Assembly: GCA_026225255.1 (NCBI GenBank)
Contig: JAMFSJ010000033.1
Location: 1-64,000, forward strand
DNA from: Methylacidimicrobium fagopyrum
GTDB taxonomy: Bacteria > Verrucomicrobiota > Verrucomicrobiia > Limisphaerales > UBA11358
DNA length: 64,000 nucleotides
Reading direction: 5' to 3'
Every line of letters starts with the position of its first letter. Position 1 is the first letter of the stretch. The notes beneath the pieces are model-generated. The model was not told where the DNA came from, ran no database searches, and worked only from the letters and a program-made list of their open reading frames with translations. Below, piece after piece: positions 6,499 to 60,067 of this stretch. Position numbers and translations under genes: made by a program.

Positions 6499-8328
6499 TT
6501 ATTGCCCGCTCGTTGACGCCGGCGTGTTCGTGAGATTGTCAGTGTCGGTGTGAACCCGATTACCCGCCGCATCAACGAGGGTGGCGGTGATAAACACCAG
6601 CGTTTTCCGATCTTGATATTTTGATTTGCTGCCGTCCGCTGCTAAATATGTCGCACTGGCTGAAATCGGATCACTGTCCAACGTGAGAAACAGGGTCTGG
6701 TTATCCAGCAAATTCACTGAATTTGTGGTTTGTTGCCCGTGAAATTGGGGTGATACCGTTGGCATATTAACTAGTTGTCCGTTAGCAGTGTTAGTCGAGG
6801 TCGTTCCCGATAAAACGGAATCTGAAAGTCCGCCAAAGGTTGGTTCATCAGTGGTATTATTAGCAGGCGTGGTATTGGCGGACGGCACGTAACCTAAAAA
6901 ATCAATCAACGAAGCGTTGAACGGTAATTCGATCGTGTAGCCGTCCGGTAAAACACGCGGTGTTACGTCGAAAATTGGCCCCGTTTCGATCGGTTCAAAT
7001 TGAGGAATAATGGCCGCGACACCGTTTGACTCTTGAAGCACAAATTTAGTCGCCACGTTGATGATCTGGGTTACATGCATGGCGGTTTGGCGTCCACTAG
7101 TTGTCACCACTTCCGGCTCGGCCAATTCTTCGACCCCATCGCGGGATGCCAATTCTTTCAAGAGATTTTGAAGGTTTTCATGGCTCAGAATGGCCGAGAA
7201 GTCACCGTTAACCGAAGTTTGGGAGCTGATCCTATTAAAGTTATAAGGTGTCCCTTTGGGTATCGCGATGAACCTCGCTTTAATATGGACTTGCGGCGTG
7301 ATCGCGTTTGTATTCGGATCAAACATCGCCGTGTTTACACTGCGCGCGGCGTGGAGTTCGCCGAGCTGCCTTCTTAACACGCCAATTTCACCGCGCAGTT
7401 TTAGTAATTCACTGAATTGCGCATCGGACAATTTCGGGGCGACCCCAATTTTTGCGAGGCGATTGGAAAGATTCTCGTTGTCGGTTTGCAGTTGCGCGAT
7501 TTGTTGCGCCAACAATTTATTTTGTTCACGCCCTTGCCCGGCTTGATGCGTTTCAAAAATTCCTACGCCAACGACGGCGATGAAGGCGGCGGTGATCAGA
7601 GCTTTTTGTAGAATCATGGTCATTTTTTTGGCGGTGGTCGTGGTGATCGCGGTGGAGGTGGAAATGGTCGTTCCCGTCAAAATGGCAGCGGCTGAAATCG
7701 TGGTGGCCAATCCGACGGGCGCGGATTGAACGGCATTCGCGGAAATTAAAACGACCAATCCGCTTGCGCCAATGGTGACGTTGCGCTTCGAGAAAAAATC
7801 GCGCAGGCGTTCGATGGCGCGGCTCACTCGTTTTTGCGCGGCATCTTCGCTCAAATTGAGCAGTTGGCCGACAGCACGGAAATCAAGATTCTTGAAATAA
7901 CGCAGCAATAAAATTTCCCGGTCGGCGTCATTCAAGCCGTCCAGCGCCTCGTCGAGCAACGGGCGAATTTTTTCCCAGTCGACACCGGATTCCGCATCCA
8001 TGAGCAATTGTTCCATAGCCTGCCTTTCGTTGGTGTGGCGACGATGTGTCTCACGCCAATGGTTCAACACAGCGAAACGCAGGGCGCGATGGAGCCAGCC
8101 GATCAAGGTCGCCTCGGCAGAGAATTTTTTGGCCAGCGAATCCGCTTTGCGTGCCAGATCAACAAAAACATTTTGCGTGAGATCGGCGGCCAGATTGGCG
8201 GAAGCCACCTGCCGCAGCGCGGCGGAATAGATTAAATCGGTGTGCCGCGCAACGATTTCCCGAAACGCCGCTTCCTGGCGATGGCCAACGTATTCGCGCA
8301 ACAATTCGATGTCCGATTTTTCGTTCAC
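6499..8328 (-). CDS. ECF sigma factor fused through a membrane helix to a secretin-like domain
   Basis: The 609-residue protein starts at GTG 8328. Residues about 1-90 are sigma-70 region 2 (DLIYSAALRQVASANLAADLTQNVF) and about 125-180 region 4 (DADREILLLRYFKNLDFRAV). A hydrophobic stretch and a predicted membrane helix follow (ALITAAFIAVVGVGIF), then a coiled coil of about 70 residues. The C-terminal third resembles the beta domain of type II/III secretins: AEPEVVTTSGRQTAMHV and GPIFDVTPRVLPDGYTIEL. By analogy with other extended ECF sigma factors the tail may act as a built-in sensor or anti-sigma element. It is tandem with a second such gene, with which it shares a near-identical linker. 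The function of the tail is inference. Confidence 0.85.
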   Translation of the reverse strand: MNEKSDIELLREYVGHRQEAAFREIVARHTDLIYSAALRQVASANLAADLTQNVFVDLARKADSLAKKFSAEATLIGWLHRALRFAVLNHWRETHRRHTNERQAMEQLLMDAESGVDWEKIRPLLDEALDGLNDADREILLLRYFKNLDFRAVGQLLNLSEDAAQKRVSRAIERLRDFFSKRNVTIGASGLVVLISANAVQSAPVGLATTISAAAILTGTTISTSTAITTTTAKKMTMILQKALITAAFIAVVGVGIFETHQAGQGREQNKLLAQQIAQLQTDNENLSNRLAKIGVAPKLSDAQFSELLKLRGEIGVLRRQLGELHAARSVNTAMFDPNTNAITPQVHIKARFIAIPKGTPYNFNRISSQTSVNGDFSAILSHENLQNLLKELASRDGVEELAEPEVVTTSGRQTAMHVTQIINVATKFVLQESNGVAAIIPQFEPIETGPIFDVTPRVLPDGYTIELPFNASLIDFLGYVPSANTTPANNTTDEPTFGGLSDSVLSGTTSTNTANGQLVNMPTVSPQFHGQQTTNSVNLLDNQTLFLTLDSDPISASATYLAADGSKSKYQDRKTLVFITATLVDAAGNRVHTDTDNLTNTPASTSGQ

Positions 8329-8481
8329 TCACTGATTAAACAGCCGCTACCCGAAAAATCCGACAAAGTATTTTCCAATTATTTTTCAGTCCGCCAACTC
8401 AGCTGCAGCCACCTTGCCTGCGAGCGAAAGCAGAATTAATTCACCGACGCACGCTTTAGCTGTGGTCATCCGATTAACCGG

Positions 8482-10161
8482 TCACTGTGAAATCGGCGCC
8501 ATCATATTTCGGTTCATCAGGAGTGCCGCTTGACTGTTTTTGATCGCGGTCGTTCTAAAATCTTGAAACTTGGCCAATTCATCCGGAGTCAGAAAGGCGG
8601 CGGCTTTCGTAGCAACCTGTCCGTAGATGCGGTCCAAAAGATTGAGGTTTTGCTGGCTTTCCTCGACCGAAGCAATGTTGGCGAGATTCAGGACGGGCAC
8701 GGTCTGATAATCAGCGGGCAATCCGTCCGCCGCCAAAGTGGATTGCGTGACTTCCTGCATGGTTTGATACAACTGATTTTTCTTGTCCGCGATGGTTGCC
8801 GTATCGCCTGTCAGAGTGCCGGCGAATTGCGCTGCCGTTAAAGTGCTGCCAAGATTTTTGGTATAATCCTGATATTGCGCCAAACCATCGGAACCCAGCA
8901 GCGTTTGTAACTGACTTTGCAAGGTGGCATTCTGGGTGGAAAACAATTGGTCAACCTCACTGCGTGTCTTATTGTCGTGCAACGCCTGCGTGATCAAGTC
9001 AATGCTGCCCATGACATCATCGGCCAGTAGATCATTAAATTGACCGGTCTGTTCGGGCGTCAGTTTTAATTTACCCGTCAATTGCGAATAAATGGCGGTC
9101 ATGCCCATCTTCTGTTGTTCGCGCAACGCTTTCCGAGCTTCCGGATCAGCGGTGATTTTGTTCAACGCACTTTTGCTGTCGGCCAGAGTTTTTTCCTGGC
9201 GCAACGCGCCGACTTCGCCGCGCAGTTTTAATACTTCGCTCGGATTCTTTTTCACCTTCGCCAGTTCGTCGGCTAAATTCGCCAGTCGGTTGGTCGCCGC
9301 CTCACGGTCGCGTTGTAATTGCGCGATTTGTGCCGTCAAGGGTGCTTGCTGTTGTTGGAGCGATTGAACTTGAGCGTTCAGTTGCGCAGCCTGATGCGCT
9401 TCATAAATGCCCGCGCCGGCGAGAACAGCGATGATGGCAGTGATCAGAGTTTTTTGCAGGGTAGTCATGGCAATAGTTTTGGTGGCAGTGATGAGGGTGG
9501 AGGTGGAAGCGGCGGTTCCGGTCAGAACCGTAACGGCGGAAATCGTGGTGGCTAATCCGACGGGCGCGGATTGAACTGCGTTCGCGGAAATCAAAACCAC
9601 CAATCCGCTCGCGCCAATCGTGACATTGCGCTTCGAAAAAAAATCACGCAGGCGTTCGACGGCGCGGCTGACGCGTTTTTGCGCGGCGTCTTCATTCGTG
9701 CCCAAGGTTTCACCGACTTCGCGCAGATTTTTATTTTCAAAATAACGCAACAAAATCGCGGTGCGGTCGGTTTCGTCGAGCGCGGACATCGCGTCGTCCA
9801 GCAACGGTTCGATTCGCATCCAGTCGTTGGCGGTCGCATTCATAGCATTCATCTCCACGGCAATTTGTTCGCGCAATTGGCGGCGCGATTCCTGCCGGAC
9901 CACATCAATCGCCGTCCGCCGGGCGACTTGATACAGCCACGCCGTCAAGACCGTGTTTGGCTTCAATTTATCGGCGTGGCGTGCGAGGTCGGCGAAGGTA
10001 GATTGCGTGATTTCCTCGGCGAGTTGCGGCGAACGGATCTGGCGCAACGCGGCGGAATAAACCAGGTTCACGTGCCGGTTCACCAGCGTGGTGAACGCGT
10101 CTTGCGAATGGTCGCGCACAAATTGCTGCAGCAGTTCAAGGTCGGTCGCTGTCATTTTCAT
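8482..10161 (-). CDS. ECF sigma factor with membrane helix, coiled coil and helical C-terminal domain
   Basis: A paralogue of the neighbouring sigma-factor fusion. Sigma region 2 (LVYSAALRQIRSPQLAEEIT) and region 4 (TDRTAILLRYFENKNLREVGE) are followed by the shared linker FFSKRNVTIGASGLVVLISA and a membrane helix (LITAIIAVLAGAGIY). A coiled coil rich in Gln and Glu comes next. The last 230 residues are helical, with an LTPEQ segment reminiscent of Spy/CpxP-like proteins, and show no secretin-like part. So the two genes keep the same front end but carry different back ends. I chose ATG 10161; TTG 10164 and ATG 10155 are also possible. Its target promoters are unknown. Confidence 0.82.
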   Translation of the reverse strand: MKMTATDLELLQQFVRDHSQDAFTTLVNRHVNLVYSAALRQIRSPQLAEEITQSTFADLARHADKLKPNTVLTAWLYQVARRTAIDVVRQESRRQLREQIAVEMNAMNATANDWMRIEPLLDDAMSALDETDRTAILLRYFENKNLREVGETLGTNEDAAQKRVSRAVERLRDFFSKRNVTIGASGLVVLISANAVQSAPVGLATTISAVTVLTGTAASTSTLITATKTIAMTTLQKTLITAIIAVLAGAGIYEAHQAAQLNAQVQSLQQQQAPLTAQIAQLQRDREAATNRLANLADELAKVKKNPSEVLKLRGEVGALRQEKTLADSKSALNKITADPEARKALREQQKMGMTAIYSQLTGKLKLTPEQTGQFNDLLADDVMGSIDLITQALHDNKTRSEVDQLFSTQNATLQSQLQTLLGSDGLAQYQDYTKNLGSTLTAAQFAGTLTGDTATIADKKNQLYQTMQEVTQSTLAADGLPADYQTVPVLNLANIASVEESQQNLNLLDRIYGQVATKAAAFLTPDELAKFQDFRTTAIKNSQAALLMNRNMMAPISQ

Positions 10162-10209
10162 CAAGCATATCGTCGCTGCTCGGCGAAATCCGACAAAAAT
10201 AAAATTAGC

Positions 10210-11050: not shown

Positions 11051-11134
11051 TAGCGGCCCGGGCGGCTCGCCCGCGAGTTGGTTTTGGTGGCTCGATGTTT
11101 CCCAAAACTCACGGGTGAGACGCCCGTGCCGCTA
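11051..11134. repeat. Inverted repeat element between genes
   Basis: TAGCGGCCCGGGCGGCTC (11051-11068) matches the reverse complement of 11117-11134 at 16 of 18 positions. It sits before the three-domain fusion gene. The alternative start at 11078 would place the N-terminus inside this repeat, which favours the downstream ATG. Confidence 0.55.
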
Positions 11135-11188
11135 TGTTTCGGATTGACGTTTTTCCTCCGGCAAACCACCTTTCTTGTCCGCTTTTTG

Positions 11189-13366
<2,178 letters not shown>

Positions 13367-54028: not shown

Positions 54029-55798
54029 GTGAAACCTTTTCGCAGCGCGCATTCCCTGAATCAAGAGAGCAGGGCAGCCGCCATCAATCTCGTGGCAGAA
54101 AAAGACGATTATTTATTGGACCTTTTGGTTGACCTCGGTTTTACCAACGCCGAAGTCGTGGCCAAAGCTCGCGAGGAAGCCAACGCCGCTGGCGTAGGCA
54201 TCGTGGACTTATTGGTAGCAAACAAAGTCATCCGTCCCGCTGACGTGACGCAGGCAAAGGCCGCGCAATTCGGCGCGGAAGTGGTGAACCTCGCCAACCT
54301 GAAAATCGAGGACGACGTCATTTCGCTCGTGCCGCGTGACGTGGCAAAAAAATATCGCGTCATCCCCGTTTACCAATCGGATGGCAAAATCTCCATCGCC
54401 ATCGCCGATCCTTCCGACCTGAACACCATTGATTCGCTGACGCATTTGTTGCACGCGGAAATTGATCCGAAGGTCGCGTCGGAACCGGACATCGAGCAGG
54501 CGCTGAATAAATATTACGGCGGTGAAAAAAAGGCGATGGTGGACGGCAAGTTCAAGGACGTCATCCAAGAACTCACGGAAGACAATGTCGAGATCGCGGA
54601 TGTAACCGCGATTGCCGATGTCGATTCCGACGCGCCGCTGATTCGCCTGGTGAATCAGATCATCGTGGACGCGTTCAAAATCCGCGCTTCTGATATTCAC
54701 CTCGAACCGCTCGAGAAAAGATTTCGTCTGCGCTATCGCATTGACGGCATGATGCAAGAGATGAAGTCGCCGCCGAAGCAGTTGCAGGCGTCGATCATCG
54801 CGCGTCTGAAAATTCAGGCGGGCATGGTCATCTCCGAACATCGCATTCCGCAGGACGGACGCATCCAATCCAAAGTGGGCAGCAAGCTGATTGACTTGCG
54901 CGTTTCCTGCCTCCCGACGAATCACGGCGAAAGTATCGTGATGCGTATCTTAGATAAAGAAGGTCTGAAACTCGGTTTGCCCGAACTCGGATTTCTCGCG
55001 GATGATCAGGCGACGTTCGAACGCATCATCGCTTTGCCGGACGGAATTTTGCTCGTGACCGGCCCGACGGGTTCCGGCAAAACGACGACGCTCTATTCCT
55101 GTTTGAATTTCATCAATCGGCCTGACCGCAAAATCATCACGGTCGAAGATCCGGTGGAATATGTTTTGGCCGGTATCAATCAGGTGCAGGTGCACGATCT
55201 GGTCGGTTTTACTTTTTCGACCGCTTTGCGCGCGATTCTGCGTCAGGCCCCGAACATCGTGATGATCGGGGAAATTCGTGATATCGAAACGGCTTCCATC
55301 GCCATCAACGCCTCGCTCACCGGGCATTTGGTATTCTCCACGTTGCACACGAATGACGCGCCCGGTGCCGTCACGCGTTTGGCGGATATCGGCGTGAAAC
55401 CGTTTTTGATCGCCTCCTCGACGCGCTGTCTGATGGCGCAACGGCTCGTGCGTAAGATTTGCAAAAAGTGCGCCGCGCCGTATGAGATGGACGATTCTGA
55501 ATTACGCGCGCTTGGTCTCAAGCGTGAAGATGTGAAAAACGCGAACGTGCAAAAAGGGCGCGGTTGTAATAATTGCAACGGCTCGGGCAACCGCGGACGT
55601 TTCGGCATCTTTGAAATTTTCGTGGTGGATGACGAAGGTCGCAAATTGATTTACGATCGCGTGCCGACGAATGTGCTCCGCGCCCGTGCCCGCGAAATGG
55701 GCATGCGCACGTTGCGCGAAGACGGCATCCGCAAAGTGCTCGCTGGTTTGACGACGGCGGAAGAAGTCATCCGCGCCACAGTCGGTGATGAAGCGTAA
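54029..55798 (+). CDS. pilB: GspE/PilB-type secretion ATPase (first copy)
   Basis: A 589-residue ATPase that powers pilus or pseudopilus assembly. The N-terminal GspEN domain (DLLVDLGFTNAEVVAKAREE, then VARVIPVYQSDGKISIAIADP-like region) precedes the motor: RLRYRIDGMMQEM, Walker [29 protein letters not shown], and IGEIRDIETASIAINAS. The zinc site is CKKCAAPYEM with GCNNCNGSGNRG. The GTG start at 54029 is uncertain, and GTG 54092 is possible. It is followed by pilT, a second PilB-type gene and pilC on the same strand. Confidence 0.94.
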   Translation: MKPFRSAHSLNQESRAAAINLVAEKDDYLLDLLVDLGFTNAEVVAKAREEANAAGVGIVDLLVANKVIRPADVTQAKAAQFGAEVVNLANLKIEDDVISLVPRDVAKKYRVIPVYQSDGKISIAIADPSDLNTIDSLTHLLHAEIDPKVASEPDIEQALNKYYGGEKKAMVDGKFKDVIQELTEDNVEIADVTAIADVDSDAPLIRLVNQIIVDAFKIRASDIHLEPLEKRFRLRYRIDGMMQEMKSPPKQLQASIIARLKIQAGMVISEHRIPQDGRIQSKVGSKLIDLRVSCLPTNHGESIVMRILDKEGLKLGLPELGFLADDQATFERIIALPDGILLVTGPTGSGKTTTLYSCLNFINRPDRKIITVEDPVEYVLAGINQVQVHDLVGFTFSTALRAILRQAPNIVMIGEIRDIETASIAINASLTGHLVFSTLHTNDAPGAVTRLADIGVKPFLIASSTRCLMAQRLVRKICKKCAAPYEMDDSELRALGLKREDVKNANVQKGRGCNNCNGSGNRGRFGIFEIFVVDDEGRKLIYDRVPTNVLRARAREMGMRTLREDGIRKVLAGLTTAEEVIRATVGDEA

Positions 55799-55805
55799 AA
55801 AATAT

Positions 55806-55887
55806 CGAATGACGAATCCCGAATTTGATATGCTGAACCTAAACCAAATTTTCGCGGATGAAACTCGTCATCCGTCATTCGTCTTTT
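55806..55887 (+). terminator. Inverted repeat with T-run between pilB and pilT
   Basis: CGAATGACGAAT (55806-55817) pairs with ATCCGTCATTCG (55870-55881) at 11 of 12 positions and is followed by TCTTTTTT. Each arm extends as 7-base words (CGAATGA CGAATCC; TCGTCAT CCGTCAT). It may reduce read-through between the two genes. Confidence 0.45.
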
Positions 55888-55903
55888 TTAATTTATAATT
55901 CTT

Positions 55904-57010
55904 ATGTCCTACTCGATGTCAGATTTGTTGCAGTTGATGGTGTCCGAAGGCGCGTCCGATTTGCATACGCGCGTCGGCACGGCGCCGACGATTCGTGTGC
56001 ACGGTATTTTGCACCGCGTCGAAGGCCCCGCCCTCACCCCGGAATCGTCGGAAGAATTGATGCGCAGCATCACATCCGAAGAACACATCCAGGCAGTGCG
56101 CGAACGCGGCGGCGCGGATTTCGCCTTCGCGTTCGGTGAAGCGGCACGATTCCGCGTCAGCGTGATGAAAGAAAAGGGGAACTTCGGCATGGTGCTCCGC
56201 CAGATTCCCAGCAAGATGCTCACGTTCGAGCAGATCGGTTTGCCGGAATCGGTGAAGGACTTGTTGCACAAGCCGCGCGGTTTGATTCTCGTCACCGGCC
56301 CGACGGGTTCCGGTAAATCCACGACGCTCGCGTCGCTGTTGAACATCGTCAATGAAACGCGCGATGAAGTGCATTTGATCACGATTGAAGATCCGATCGA
56401 ATATTATCACAAGCACAAGAAAGCGCTGGTGACACAGCGCGAAGTCCACGTGGACGTGCCGAATTTTGCGGAAGCCTTGCGCCGCGCCTTGCGCCAGGAT
56501 CCGGACATGATTCTCGTCGGTGAAATGCGCGATTTGGAAACGATTGAGTCGGCGATTACGGCGGCGGAAACCGGTCACTTAGTTTTCGGCACATTGCATA
56601 CGACCGGCGCGGCGAAGACCATTGATCGGCTCGTGAACGCGTTCCCGACGCAGCAGCAGGAAATGGTGCGTATCCAGCTTTCAACCGTGTTGCAAGCGGT
56701 CATCTCGCAGTTGCTCATTCCGCGTGCGGACAAACCGGGCCGCGTCGCCGCGTTTGAAATCATGATCAACACGCCGTCCATCGCGGCGTTGATTCGCGAT
56801 AATAAAACGTTCCGTATCCAATCCGATATTCAAACCGGTATGAAGTTCGGCATGGTGACGTTGGATTCCTGGTTGATTGATAAATATGTGAAGGGTTTGA
56901 TTGCCCGCGAGGAAGTCATCAACAAATCTCAAGATCCGACGACGATCATGGCCAAGTTGCAAGAATTGGATTTGGCAGCGGCAGTGGAACAAGGTCGTCA
57001 AAAGAAATAA
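55904..57010 (+). CDS. pilT: Twitching motility ATPase PilT
   Basis: A 368-residue retraction ATPase for type IV pili. The motor motifs are [15 protein letters not shown] (Walker A), [17 protein letters not shown] (Asp box), [15 protein letters not shown] (Walker B) and [19 protein letters not shown] (His box). AIRDNK-like and [17 protein letters not shown] segments match PilT. Presence of a retraction ATPase argues for a true type IV pilus rather than a pure type II secretion system. It starts 105 bases after pilB and 6 bases before the second PilB gene. Confidence 0.96.
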
Positions 57011-57016
57011 TTTCCC

Positions 57017-58720
57017 ATGTCTGACGAAATTAATAGCCCGTTGTTGTCGCTCATCCGTGAGCAGGGGATGGTGGACGATTTGCAATACGAAGACATCGTT
57101 GCCGAGTCTAAGCGTAACTCGACGCCCGTGATTCAGATTTTGCAGGACATGGGCATCATGAAGCTCGATGATATTTTGCAGATCGAAGCCCATGCGTTGG
57201 GCACGATTGTCGTTCAATTGAACGATCTGAAAATTTCACCGGAATTGCTCAAGCGCGTTCCGGTCAAACTCGCGCAGACGTATAAATGTCTGCCGGTCGG
57301 CATGGATAACGGGGCGTTGCAGATTGCGATGTCAGAGCCGCTCAATCCGGGGCAGGCGGATGAAATTCAATTTGCGGTCAAAGGCGATGTGCAGGTGGTC
57401 GTGGCGGATCCGGCGGAAATCGCCAAAGCAATCGAACGGCTTTATGGCCAGGAAGATAGCGGCGAAGGTTTTGCCGACATCTTAAAAGACATTGATCCGG
57501 AAAAACTCGCGCGCGAAGTCGAAGACGCCACTGATAATACCAAGGCGGCGGAAGCGTTGGCCAACGAAGTGCCGATCGTGCGTTTCGTGAATCTGGTTTT
57601 GCAACAAGCGGTGACGGATCGGGCGAGCGATATTCACTTTGAACCGTTTGAAACGGAATTTCGTATCCGTTATCGCGTGGACGGTGCGCTCTACGAAATG
57701 GCGCCGCCGCCCAAAAATCTCGCGTTGCCGGTGACCTCGCGTATCAAGGTCATGGCAAACTTGAACATTTCCGAAAAACGTTTGCCGCAGGACGGACGTA
57801 TCAGTTTGAACTTGAACGGCAAACAGATTGATTTGCGCGTGAGCACCTTGCCGACCGCGTTCGGCGAGTCGGTCGTGTTGCGCGTGTTGGATCGTTCGTC
57901 CGTGAATCTGGAAATCGAGTCGCTCGGTTTTCCGCGCTACATCCACGAATTTGTGACGGACGTGATCAACCGGCCCAACGGCATTTTCGTCGTGACCGGC
58001 CCTACTGGTTCCGGCAAAACGACGACGCTGTATTCCTGTTTGCGCCGCGTGAATACGATTGATTCCAAATTGCTCACGGCGGAAGACCCGGTGGAATTTG
58101 ACATCGAAGGCATCATGCAGGTCGCCATTAACGATGCGGCGGGCATGACGTTCGCCAAAGCGTTGAAATCCTTTTTGCGGCAAGATCCCGATATCATCAT
58201 GGTGGGTGAAATGCGCGATTTGGAAACGGCGCAGATTTCCATTCAAGCGTCGCTGACCGGTCACTTGGTTTTGAGCACGCTGCACACGAACGATGCGCCC
58301 GGCGCGGTGACGCGTTTGATGGATATGGGCGTGGAACCGTTTTTGATTTCCTCGACGATGATGGGTGTGCTCGCACAACGGCTCGTCCGCACGTGTTGCA
58401 AAAATTGCCGCACGCCGTTTGAACCGACGGAAGAACAGTTGTCCATGCTCAACCTTTCGCCGCACGATTTGGGTGATAAAGTTTTCCATTACGGCCGCGG
58501 CTGTTCCGTTTGCAATGACACCGGTTACAAAGGTCGTAAAGGGATTTACGAACTATTAGTGGTCAACGATGCCATCCGCACCTTGATCAATGAACGCGCC
58601 CCGACGGTGGTGTTGCGTCAGAAAGCGGTGGAACTCGGCATGGTGACGTTGCGCGAAGATGGCTTGCGTGGTATTTTCGATGGTGATACAACCATTGAAG
58701 AAGTCGTCAAATATACTTGA
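57017..58720 (+). CDS. GspE/PilB-type secretion ATPase (second copy)
   Basis: A 567-residue paralogue of the ATPase at 54029. N-terminal GspEN (residues 1-150), then [19 protein letters not shown], Walker [51 protein letters not shown] and [15 protein letters not shown]. The zinc cluster is [11 protein letters not shown] plus [12 protein letters not shown]. Two PilB ATPases flanking PilT suggests two assembly systems or a shared platform, for example one for pili and one for a pseudopilus. It is followed by pilC. Confidence 0.95.
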
Positions 58721-58744
58721 TTGAACCCTTAACTCTTATTCGTT

Positions 58745-60067
58745 ATGGCTAAATATTCTTACGTCGCATTAGACGCCCGTGGCAACGAAACCAAAGGCAG
58801 CATCGAGGCCGCCAGCCAGAACGAAGCCATCGGGCGCGTGAAGGACATGCAATTGTTCCCCACGAAAGTAGCCGAGGCGGGTGCGGAAAAATCTTCCGGC
58901 AAAAAAGATAAGGCCACCGGCAAAACCGCCAAGCCCAAAGCCAAGGGCAAGAAAAAGGGCGGCGCGGGGAATATCGAGATCAAGATTCCGTTTTTGAGCG
59001 GACGGGTGAAACCGAAAGTGTTGACGACTTTTACGCGGCAATTAGCCACGCTCGTGGATGCCGGTCTGCCGCTCTTGCGCGGTCTGCGCGTGTTGGAAAA
59101 ACAGGAACGTAACGTCACGCTCAAGAATATCATCGGCGACCTCGCGGTTTCCATCGAAGGCGGTAGCACGTTCTCCGAAGCCCTCGCGCAACATCCCAAA
59201 GTTTTCAACCGTTTGTTCGTGAACATGGTGAAGGCCGGCGAACTCGGCGGTGTGCTTGAAGTCGTGTTGAAACGTCTCGCGGAATTTTCCGAAAAAGCCC
59301 AGAAAATCAAAGGCAAAGTCAAAGCCGCGATGTTTTATCCCGTCGCCGTTTTGATCGTGGCCGTTGGCATCATGATTTTGCTGATGTGCTTCGTGGTGCC
59401 AAAATTTAAGGACGTTTTTGCGGGCATGGGTTTCACGCTGCCTTGGTTTACGCGGTTTGTCATGGGCATCAGTGACATGATCAAGAATAACATTTTAGGC
59501 ACGATGGGCATTGTGGCGCTGTTTGTGATCGCCTTTTTACTCTTCATCAAAACCAAGTTCGGTCTGCATCTTTGGGATAAATTCAAACTGAAAATGCCCG
59601 TGCTCGGCCCGGTCGTCAGCAAGGTATCCATCTCGCGTTTCGCGCGCACGTTGGGCACGTTGGTCAGCAGCGGTGTGCCGATTTTGCAGGCGCTCATCAT
59701 TGTGCGGGAAACCGCGGGTAACGTTATCGTTGCCAACGCGGTCAACAAGATTCATGAAAGCGTGAAAGAAGGCGAAACCATCACTGCGTCGTTGGAAGGT
59801 TCCGGCGTCTTCCCGCCGATGGTCGTCAGCATGGTGGACGTCGGCGAACAAACCGGTGCTTTGCCGGAAATGCTCTTGCGTATCGCGGATGACTATGACG
59901 AACAGGTGGATAACGCCGTGTCCGCGATGACTTCCTTGCTGGAACCGATCATGATTGTTTTTCTGGCCGTGATCGTCGGCAGTATCGTGATCGCGATGTT
60001 CCTGCCCTTGATCCAAATGATCACCAACATGAGCGGTGACGGTGATGGCGGTGGTAGCAAAGAATAA
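58745..60067 (+). CDS. pilC: Pilus assembly platform protein PilC/GspF
   Basis: A 440-residue inner-membrane platform protein with two GspF domains. The first begins FTRQLATLVDAGLPLLRGL and the second FARTLGTLVSSGVPILQAL. Typical membrane helices are seen (VAVLIVAVGIMILLMCFVV near 200; IVFLAVIVGSIVIAMFLPL at the end). An unusual Lys-rich linker (about residues 48-75, with GKKDKATGKTAKPK) lies before the first domain. It is the last of the four motor genes; a toxin-antitoxin pair follows. Confidence 0.95.
   Translation: MAKYSYVALDARGNETKGSIEAASQNEAIGRVKDMQLFPTKVAEAGAEKSSGKKDKATGKTAKPKAKGKKKGGAGNIEIKIPFLSGRVKPKVLTTFTRQLATLVDAGLPLLRGLRVLEKQERNVTLKNIIGDLAVSIEGGSTFSEALAQHPKVFNRLFVNMVKAGELGGVLEVVLKRLAEFSEKAQKIKGKVKAAMFYPVAVLIVAVGIMILLMCFVVPKFKDVFAGMGFTLPWFTRFVMGISDMIKNNILGTMGIVALFVIAFLLFIKTKFGLHLWDKFKLKMPVLGPVVSKVSISRFARTLGTLVSSGVPILQALIIVRETAGNVIVANAVNKIHESVKEGETITASLEGSGVFPPMVVSMVDVGEQTGALPEMLLRIADDYDEQVDNAVSAMTSLLEPIMIVFLAVIVGSIVIAMFLPLIQMITNMSGDGDGGGSKE

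Follow-up and report, generated by a model that had tools for sequence, protein, structure and literature searches.

A predicted membrane-tethered ECF sigma factor with a reduced secretin-like tail, from a family found mainly in Limisphaerales

Known membrane-linked sigma factors and the P0001 locus

Sigma factors with membrane-anchored C-terminal extensions have been described in ECF48, ECF52 (SCO4117) and ECF53, and release by proteolysis has been proposed for SCO4117 (PMC8999054). In IutY of Pseudomonas putida (ECF243), the sigma and the anti-sigma parts reside in one chain, which is cut by Prc and RseP (PMC8999054). Here we analyzed P0001, a protein encoded in a 64,000-nt stretch of Methylacidimicrobium fagopyrum DNA (the whole stretch is called the window hereafter). 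Like ECF48, ECF52 and ECF53, P0001 has sigma regions 2 and 4 followed by a C-terminal extension. In those proteins the extension contains an outer domain and one or two membrane helices; in P0001 a membrane helix is predicted and an outer position of the domain behind it is proposed. However, those proteins are actinobacterial and carry a zinc-type anti-sigma segment, whereas P0001 lacks cysteine altogether and has the hydrophobic linker AVQxAPxGL in place of such a segment, and its putative outer domain is secretin-like. P0001 resembles IutY in being one polypeptide with a sigma part that is predicted to be tethered to the membrane, but IutY serves iron-starvation cell-surface signalling and its extension is an anti-sigma part, not a secretin-like one. 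None of the ECF factors described in PMC8999054 has a secretin-like domain. Our literature search returned no description of the family of P0001; the main ECF reclassification lay outside this search, so the family may already have been named.

On balance, we favor the reading that P0001 is a membrane-tethered ECF sigma factor with its own envelope-facing sensor module, belonging to a lineage-specific family with exchangeable tails. In this model, the sigma part would stay in the cytoplasm, tethered by the helix, with the coiled coil and the secretin-like domain in the periplasm, where the latter would bind to or assemble with an envelope component, possibly parts of a secretion or pilus system. 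An event at the tail would lead to proteolysis or rearrangement that frees or activates the sigma part, which would then transcribe chiefly its own gene, as positive feedback, and further targets.

Architecture of P0001 and its secretin-like tail

P0001 is encoded by a single intact ORF at the position first reported for it (Table 1). Sigma-70 regions 2 and 4, which the initial annotation had assigned, both score above the Pfam cut-offs, and the protein reaches 74 bits against NCBIfam TIGR02937 (sigma70-ECF; cut-off 43). Region 3 is absent, as in ECF sigma factors, and the M56 protease domain PF05569 is absent from P0001 as well (Pfam). In fold comparisons, the AlphaFold model of full-length P0001 matched both secretins and ECF sigma factors, the fold matches of the sigma part being SigE, SigW and SigK.

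Table 1 Features of the P0001 locus (positions in the window)
Feature	Position	Strand	Basis or remark
Gene P0001, sigma-linker-membrane helix-coiled coil-secretin-like protein	6499..8328	-	609 aa, GTG start
Sigma-70 region 2, residues 26-96	8041..8253	-	Pfam PF04542, E 1.1e-5, above cut-off
Sigma-70 region 4, residues 125-176	7801..7956	-	Pfam PF04545/PF08281, E 3e-9, above cut-off
P0001/P0002 high-identity tract, residues ~163-225	7654..7842	-	DNA ~80-92% identical, flanks mostly 45-65%
Hydrophobic linker motif GLVVLISANAVQSAPVGLA, residues 190-208	7705..7761	-	alignment, hydropathy; in nearly all of 30 further members
Predicted transmembrane helix, residues ~239-259	7552..7614	-	hydropathy 2.07 over 19 residues
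Coiled coil, residues 261-336	7321..7548	-	AlphaFold helices 261-295 and 302-336; alignment
Reduced secretin-like domain, residues 346-596	6541..7293	-	profile, solved-structure sequences, fold
P0001 promoter-like element TTGTCGGATT-N14-TGTTTAAT	8335..8366	-	ends 6 nt before GTG start
Adjacent paralogue P0002, same chassis, helical LTxxQ-like (CpxP/Spy-like) tail	8482..10161	-	
P0002 promoter-like element TTGTCGGATT-N14-CGATATGCT	10164..10196	-	

The tail of P0001 is homologous to secretins. The whole protein scores just under the cut-off of Pfam Secretin (24.2 bits against 27.5), while the tail alone exceeds it (30.5 bits, E 3.2e-7). Each of ten tail relatives hits the same family (best 3e-14), and a profile of the tail matches solved secretins by sequence (f1 pIV, 1.1e-4; BfpB, 5e-4; GspD, 7e-4). 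AlphaFold models the tail confidently as a beta-rich domain. Every one of the 16 Foldseek matches of this model at E <= 0.001 is a secretin, and the best 28 rows in VIA are secretins (Z 8.0-12.1), followed by unrelated folds at Z 7.3. Thus, the profile search and the structure prediction that the initial annotation had proposed as a check both returned the secretin-like domain that it had read in the tail.

The tail shares the fold and sequence of the secretin core with GspD, PilQ and f1 pIV, but P0001 differs from these proteins as follows: First, it has neither a signal peptide nor the N0-N3/NolW domains, and the sigma part, the linker, the helix (a predicted inner-membrane tether) and the coiled coil precede the secretin core instead. 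Second, compared with GspD-type secretins, some 55-65 residues that would follow the first strand, among them the LGFDW strand, are absent from the sigma-borne tails. Third, the VPxxGDxPxxGxLF loop and the full barrel strands were found in none of the five sigma-borne tails, in contrast to eight of eight GspD-type secretins in the same search. Because P0001 has no N-domains, no signature loop and one barrel strand too few, we rejected the reading as a pore-forming secretin and regard the tail as a reduced secretin domain. By these comparisons it is unlikely to form a standard outer-membrane pore, and perhaps works as a binding or assembly module.

The same type of tail forms the C-terminus of an M56/BlaR1-type protein in the own genome (contig C19), which has PF05569 and a BlaI-type gene directly upstream. 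Among 61 tail loci in public genomes, nearly all from Verrucomicrobia, M56-borne tails outnumber sigma-borne ones, and BlaI is adjacent to most of the former. The tail tree contains M56/BlaR1-type proteins from the own-genome locus and 19 others, mostly with BlaI directly upstream, and the sigma-borne tails are nested near the M56 tails. The BlaR1/MecR1-type M56 receptors of the own genome and its relatives therefore have the same secretin-like C-terminal module as P0001, but in place of a sigma factor they have an M56 protease, partnered by BlaI, as output. Two different output modules are thus combined with one input module.

We saw no anti-sigma domain in P0001 that would hold the sigma part, and this counts against a tether-and-release model. 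The zinc-type anti-sigma segment (HxxxCxxC) was sought and not found, with no cysteine among the 609 residues, and there is no room for an anti-sigma segment between region 4 and the linker. ToxR and CadC bind DNA while membrane-anchored, and the sigma part of P0001 might likewise work uncut at the membrane, with the tail tuning it by oligomerizing or by binding a ligand. The long coiled coil suits oligomer-based signalling, and secretin relatives form rings. Nevertheless, proteolysis is the proposed route of activation for the ECF proteins with membrane extensions that have been described (PMC8999054), and we consider activity without cleavage doubtful, though a serious contender.

Several further observations were made on secretins and on the window. 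In mostly Limisphaerales genomes, a genuine GspD-type secretin is split over two consecutive ORFs of ~770 and 220 aa (L094, L096, L100-L102, L104, L107-L110, L113-L118, L122, L123, L125, L127, L128), and in those read the second ORF encodes the latter half of the secretin domain together with a separate signal peptide. GspD-type secretin is one ORF in other genomes. A secretin made in two pieces would be unusual. Within the window, one ORF (11078-13366, plus strand) combines a low-molecular-weight tyrosine phosphatase, ribose-5-phosphate isomerase B and serine hydroxymethyltransferase (Pfam). By ORF reading, positions 20000-47000 hold an apparent pectin-utilisation region with several polygalacturonase-like and pectinesterase-like proteins, two XylR-like AraC-type regulators and an MFS transporter, and positions 54029-60067 (plus strand) hold a type IV pilus/type II secretion-like motor cluster with two PilB/GspE-like, one PilT-like and one PilC/GspF-like genes, followed by pseudopilin-like genes.

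The sigma family and its promoter-like elements

Judging from profile matches, P0001 is not a one-off but belongs to a large family of putative tethered sigma factors, mainly from Limisphaerales (Verrucomicrobiota), in which it represents one type of tail. Of the 168 genomes of the order, 165 contain matches to a family profile comprising region 4, the linker and the helix (E down to 1e-70). Single genomes reach at least 23 matches, the weakest of which may be plain ECF factors. The own genome has seven members at E <= 1e-20, while among 114 other genomes, sampled evenly across the phylum, only 7 have any match at this level. The thirty loci that we read completely have the helix, the coiled coil and, with few exceptions, the ANAVQxAPxGL linker motif in common and differ in their tails, which by eye are LTxxQ-like, TPR-like, HEAT-like, short secretin-like, and pseudopilin- or NTF2-like; in addition, one own-genome member carries carboxypeptidase-regulatory domains (Pfam). 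The short secretin-like tails, read by eye in two sigma-chassis proteins, of L142 and L152 (the latter with TVTTVNGRQAQV...STGPILDFYPTVAADGQSV), apparently fall outside the P0001 tail clade. Sigma-chassis genes also stand in tandem arrays of three to six per contig (G030:C221, G042:C12, G022:C35).

The adjacent gene P0002 encodes such a paralogue, probably starting at ATG 10161 or 10155 rather than at TTG 10164. Its tail is read as LTxxQ-like on the basis of an LTPEQ motif, no family exceeding the cut-off for this tail. Since the identity between P0001 and P0002 is high only around the linker (Table 1), gene conversion or recombination there is likely. Furthermore, the five secretin-like tails on sigma factors form one clade (support 99/98) while the sigma domains that bear them do not (AU p 1.4e-6 without the long-branch member, 1.0e-7 with it), indicating that tails were swapped between sigma backbones. 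In one relative, the sigma-secretin gene is immediately preceded by a decayed remnant of a P0002-type tail, so this order of genes is shared. We found no conserved neighbor gene of the five fusions; carbohydrate-active genes lie near them, but such genes are common in these genomes.

Upstream of the family genes, the k-mer TGTCGGAT is present in 30 of 49 regions (shuffled maximum, 4), and most genes that we read have a box pair consisting of TGTCGGAT, a constant 15 nt and a clade-specific second box. The second box is mostly located ~6-11 nt before the start codon, suggesting leaderless transcripts, and its class changes five times on the sigma tree (minimum 4, shuffled mean 22), so the classes follow the sigma clades. 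The exact P0001-type element has 13 copies in 79 genomes and the exact P0002-type element nine in 146 genomes, all of them at family gene starts (13/13 and 9/9), a few of these genes being broken or cut by a contig end; neither element occurs in the reversed control. A search of 14 genomes that allowed up to two mismatches gave the same association with family genes, except for a few sites before non-family ORFs. Autoregulated ECF factors typically show such an association. Because a sigma gene and its promoter are inherited together, some agreement between them would arise even without a function, but shared descent does not account for the fixed spacing or for the conservation across genera. 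The exact copies, standing only before family genes, thus predict autoregulation, perhaps of little more than the own gene, and the element seems to be reserved for this family.

This pattern could also mean that the tail is the product that matters, with the sigma part mainly switching on its own gene so that the envelope protein is made when needed, as a one-gene regulon. Besides the confinement of the exact copies to family genes, a genome usually has one copy of a class, a P0002-type site with up to two mismatches occurs in the own genome only at P0002, and tails such as LTxxQ are effector-like. A search of the own genome for a wider regulon with up to three mismatches gave 18 sites against seven in the reversed control, none convincingly before a non-sigma gene. 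However, strict patterns miss weaker sites, the genome is only ~86% complete, and most studied ECF factors have wider regulons, and we therefore consider a role limited to self-supply of the tail rather unlikely. Somewhat more plausible, though tentative, is a one-gene circuit in which the sigma factor is fused to the envelope protein whose gene it transcribes from a private promoter class. In this reading, many rounds of copying within a single bacterial order would have equipped the chassis with different, exchangeable tails that act as sensors or effectors, some of which also occur in BlaR1-type receptors.

Topology and biological meaning

The favored tethered sensor depends on an outer tail. 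The membrane helix and the coiled coil of the initial annotation were both recovered, the former by hydropathy and the latter, with a conserved LLKLRGE(I/V)G motif, by AlphaFold and alignment. We infer that the sigma part is cytoplasmic and that the helix places the coiled coil and the secretin-like domain in the periplasm. Four observations favor this position: the M56/BlaR1-type proteins end in the P0001-type tail, and the C-termini of BlaR1 are extracytoplasmic; the charge is net positive before the helix, with lysines, and near zero after it; stand-alone proteins with the tail type of P0002 begin with a signal anchor at the N-terminus, as would be expected if that module is exported in an N-in/C-out orientation; and known secretins are exported.

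Ahead of the helix, residues 185-213 form a second, weaker hydrophobic stretch that the initial annotation did not contain. On a crude membrane-insertion scale, this stretch and the helix are comparable and both only marginally hydrophobic, and the estimate could not separate one span from two. Both might then cross the membrane, leaving a cytoplasmic, protein-binding tail, in line with the TPR- or HEAT-like tails of some family members; against this stand the tail in common with BlaR1-type receptors, the signal-anchored relatives of the P0002 tail and the lysines before the helix, which make two spans unlikely. A relic or chance fusion without function is very improbable: sigma-borne P0001-type tails are rare (5 of ~196 genomes scanned) and some family loci are frameshifted or truncated, but the ORF, the domain order and the promoter are maintained in five diverged genomes with tails 40-51% identical to that of P0001. 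The original proposal of a sigma factor anchored to a secretin-like domain that faces the envelope stands in outline, on the fold, the helix, the M56-shared tail, the signal anchors and the charge, with a putative signal and release step, and is amended to a reduced domain that is unlikely to be a standard pore.

Large groups of bacteria that we know chiefly through metagenomes may control their genes by means absent from model organisms. If the tethered-sensor reading is true, a single order employs numerous membrane sigma factors made in one piece, exchanges the sensors among them, and shares one of these with another receptor class. The promoter pairs would make the likely specificity of each sigma factor readable from sequence, so that its regulon can be tested, and would constitute a natural set of matched sigma-promoter pairs.
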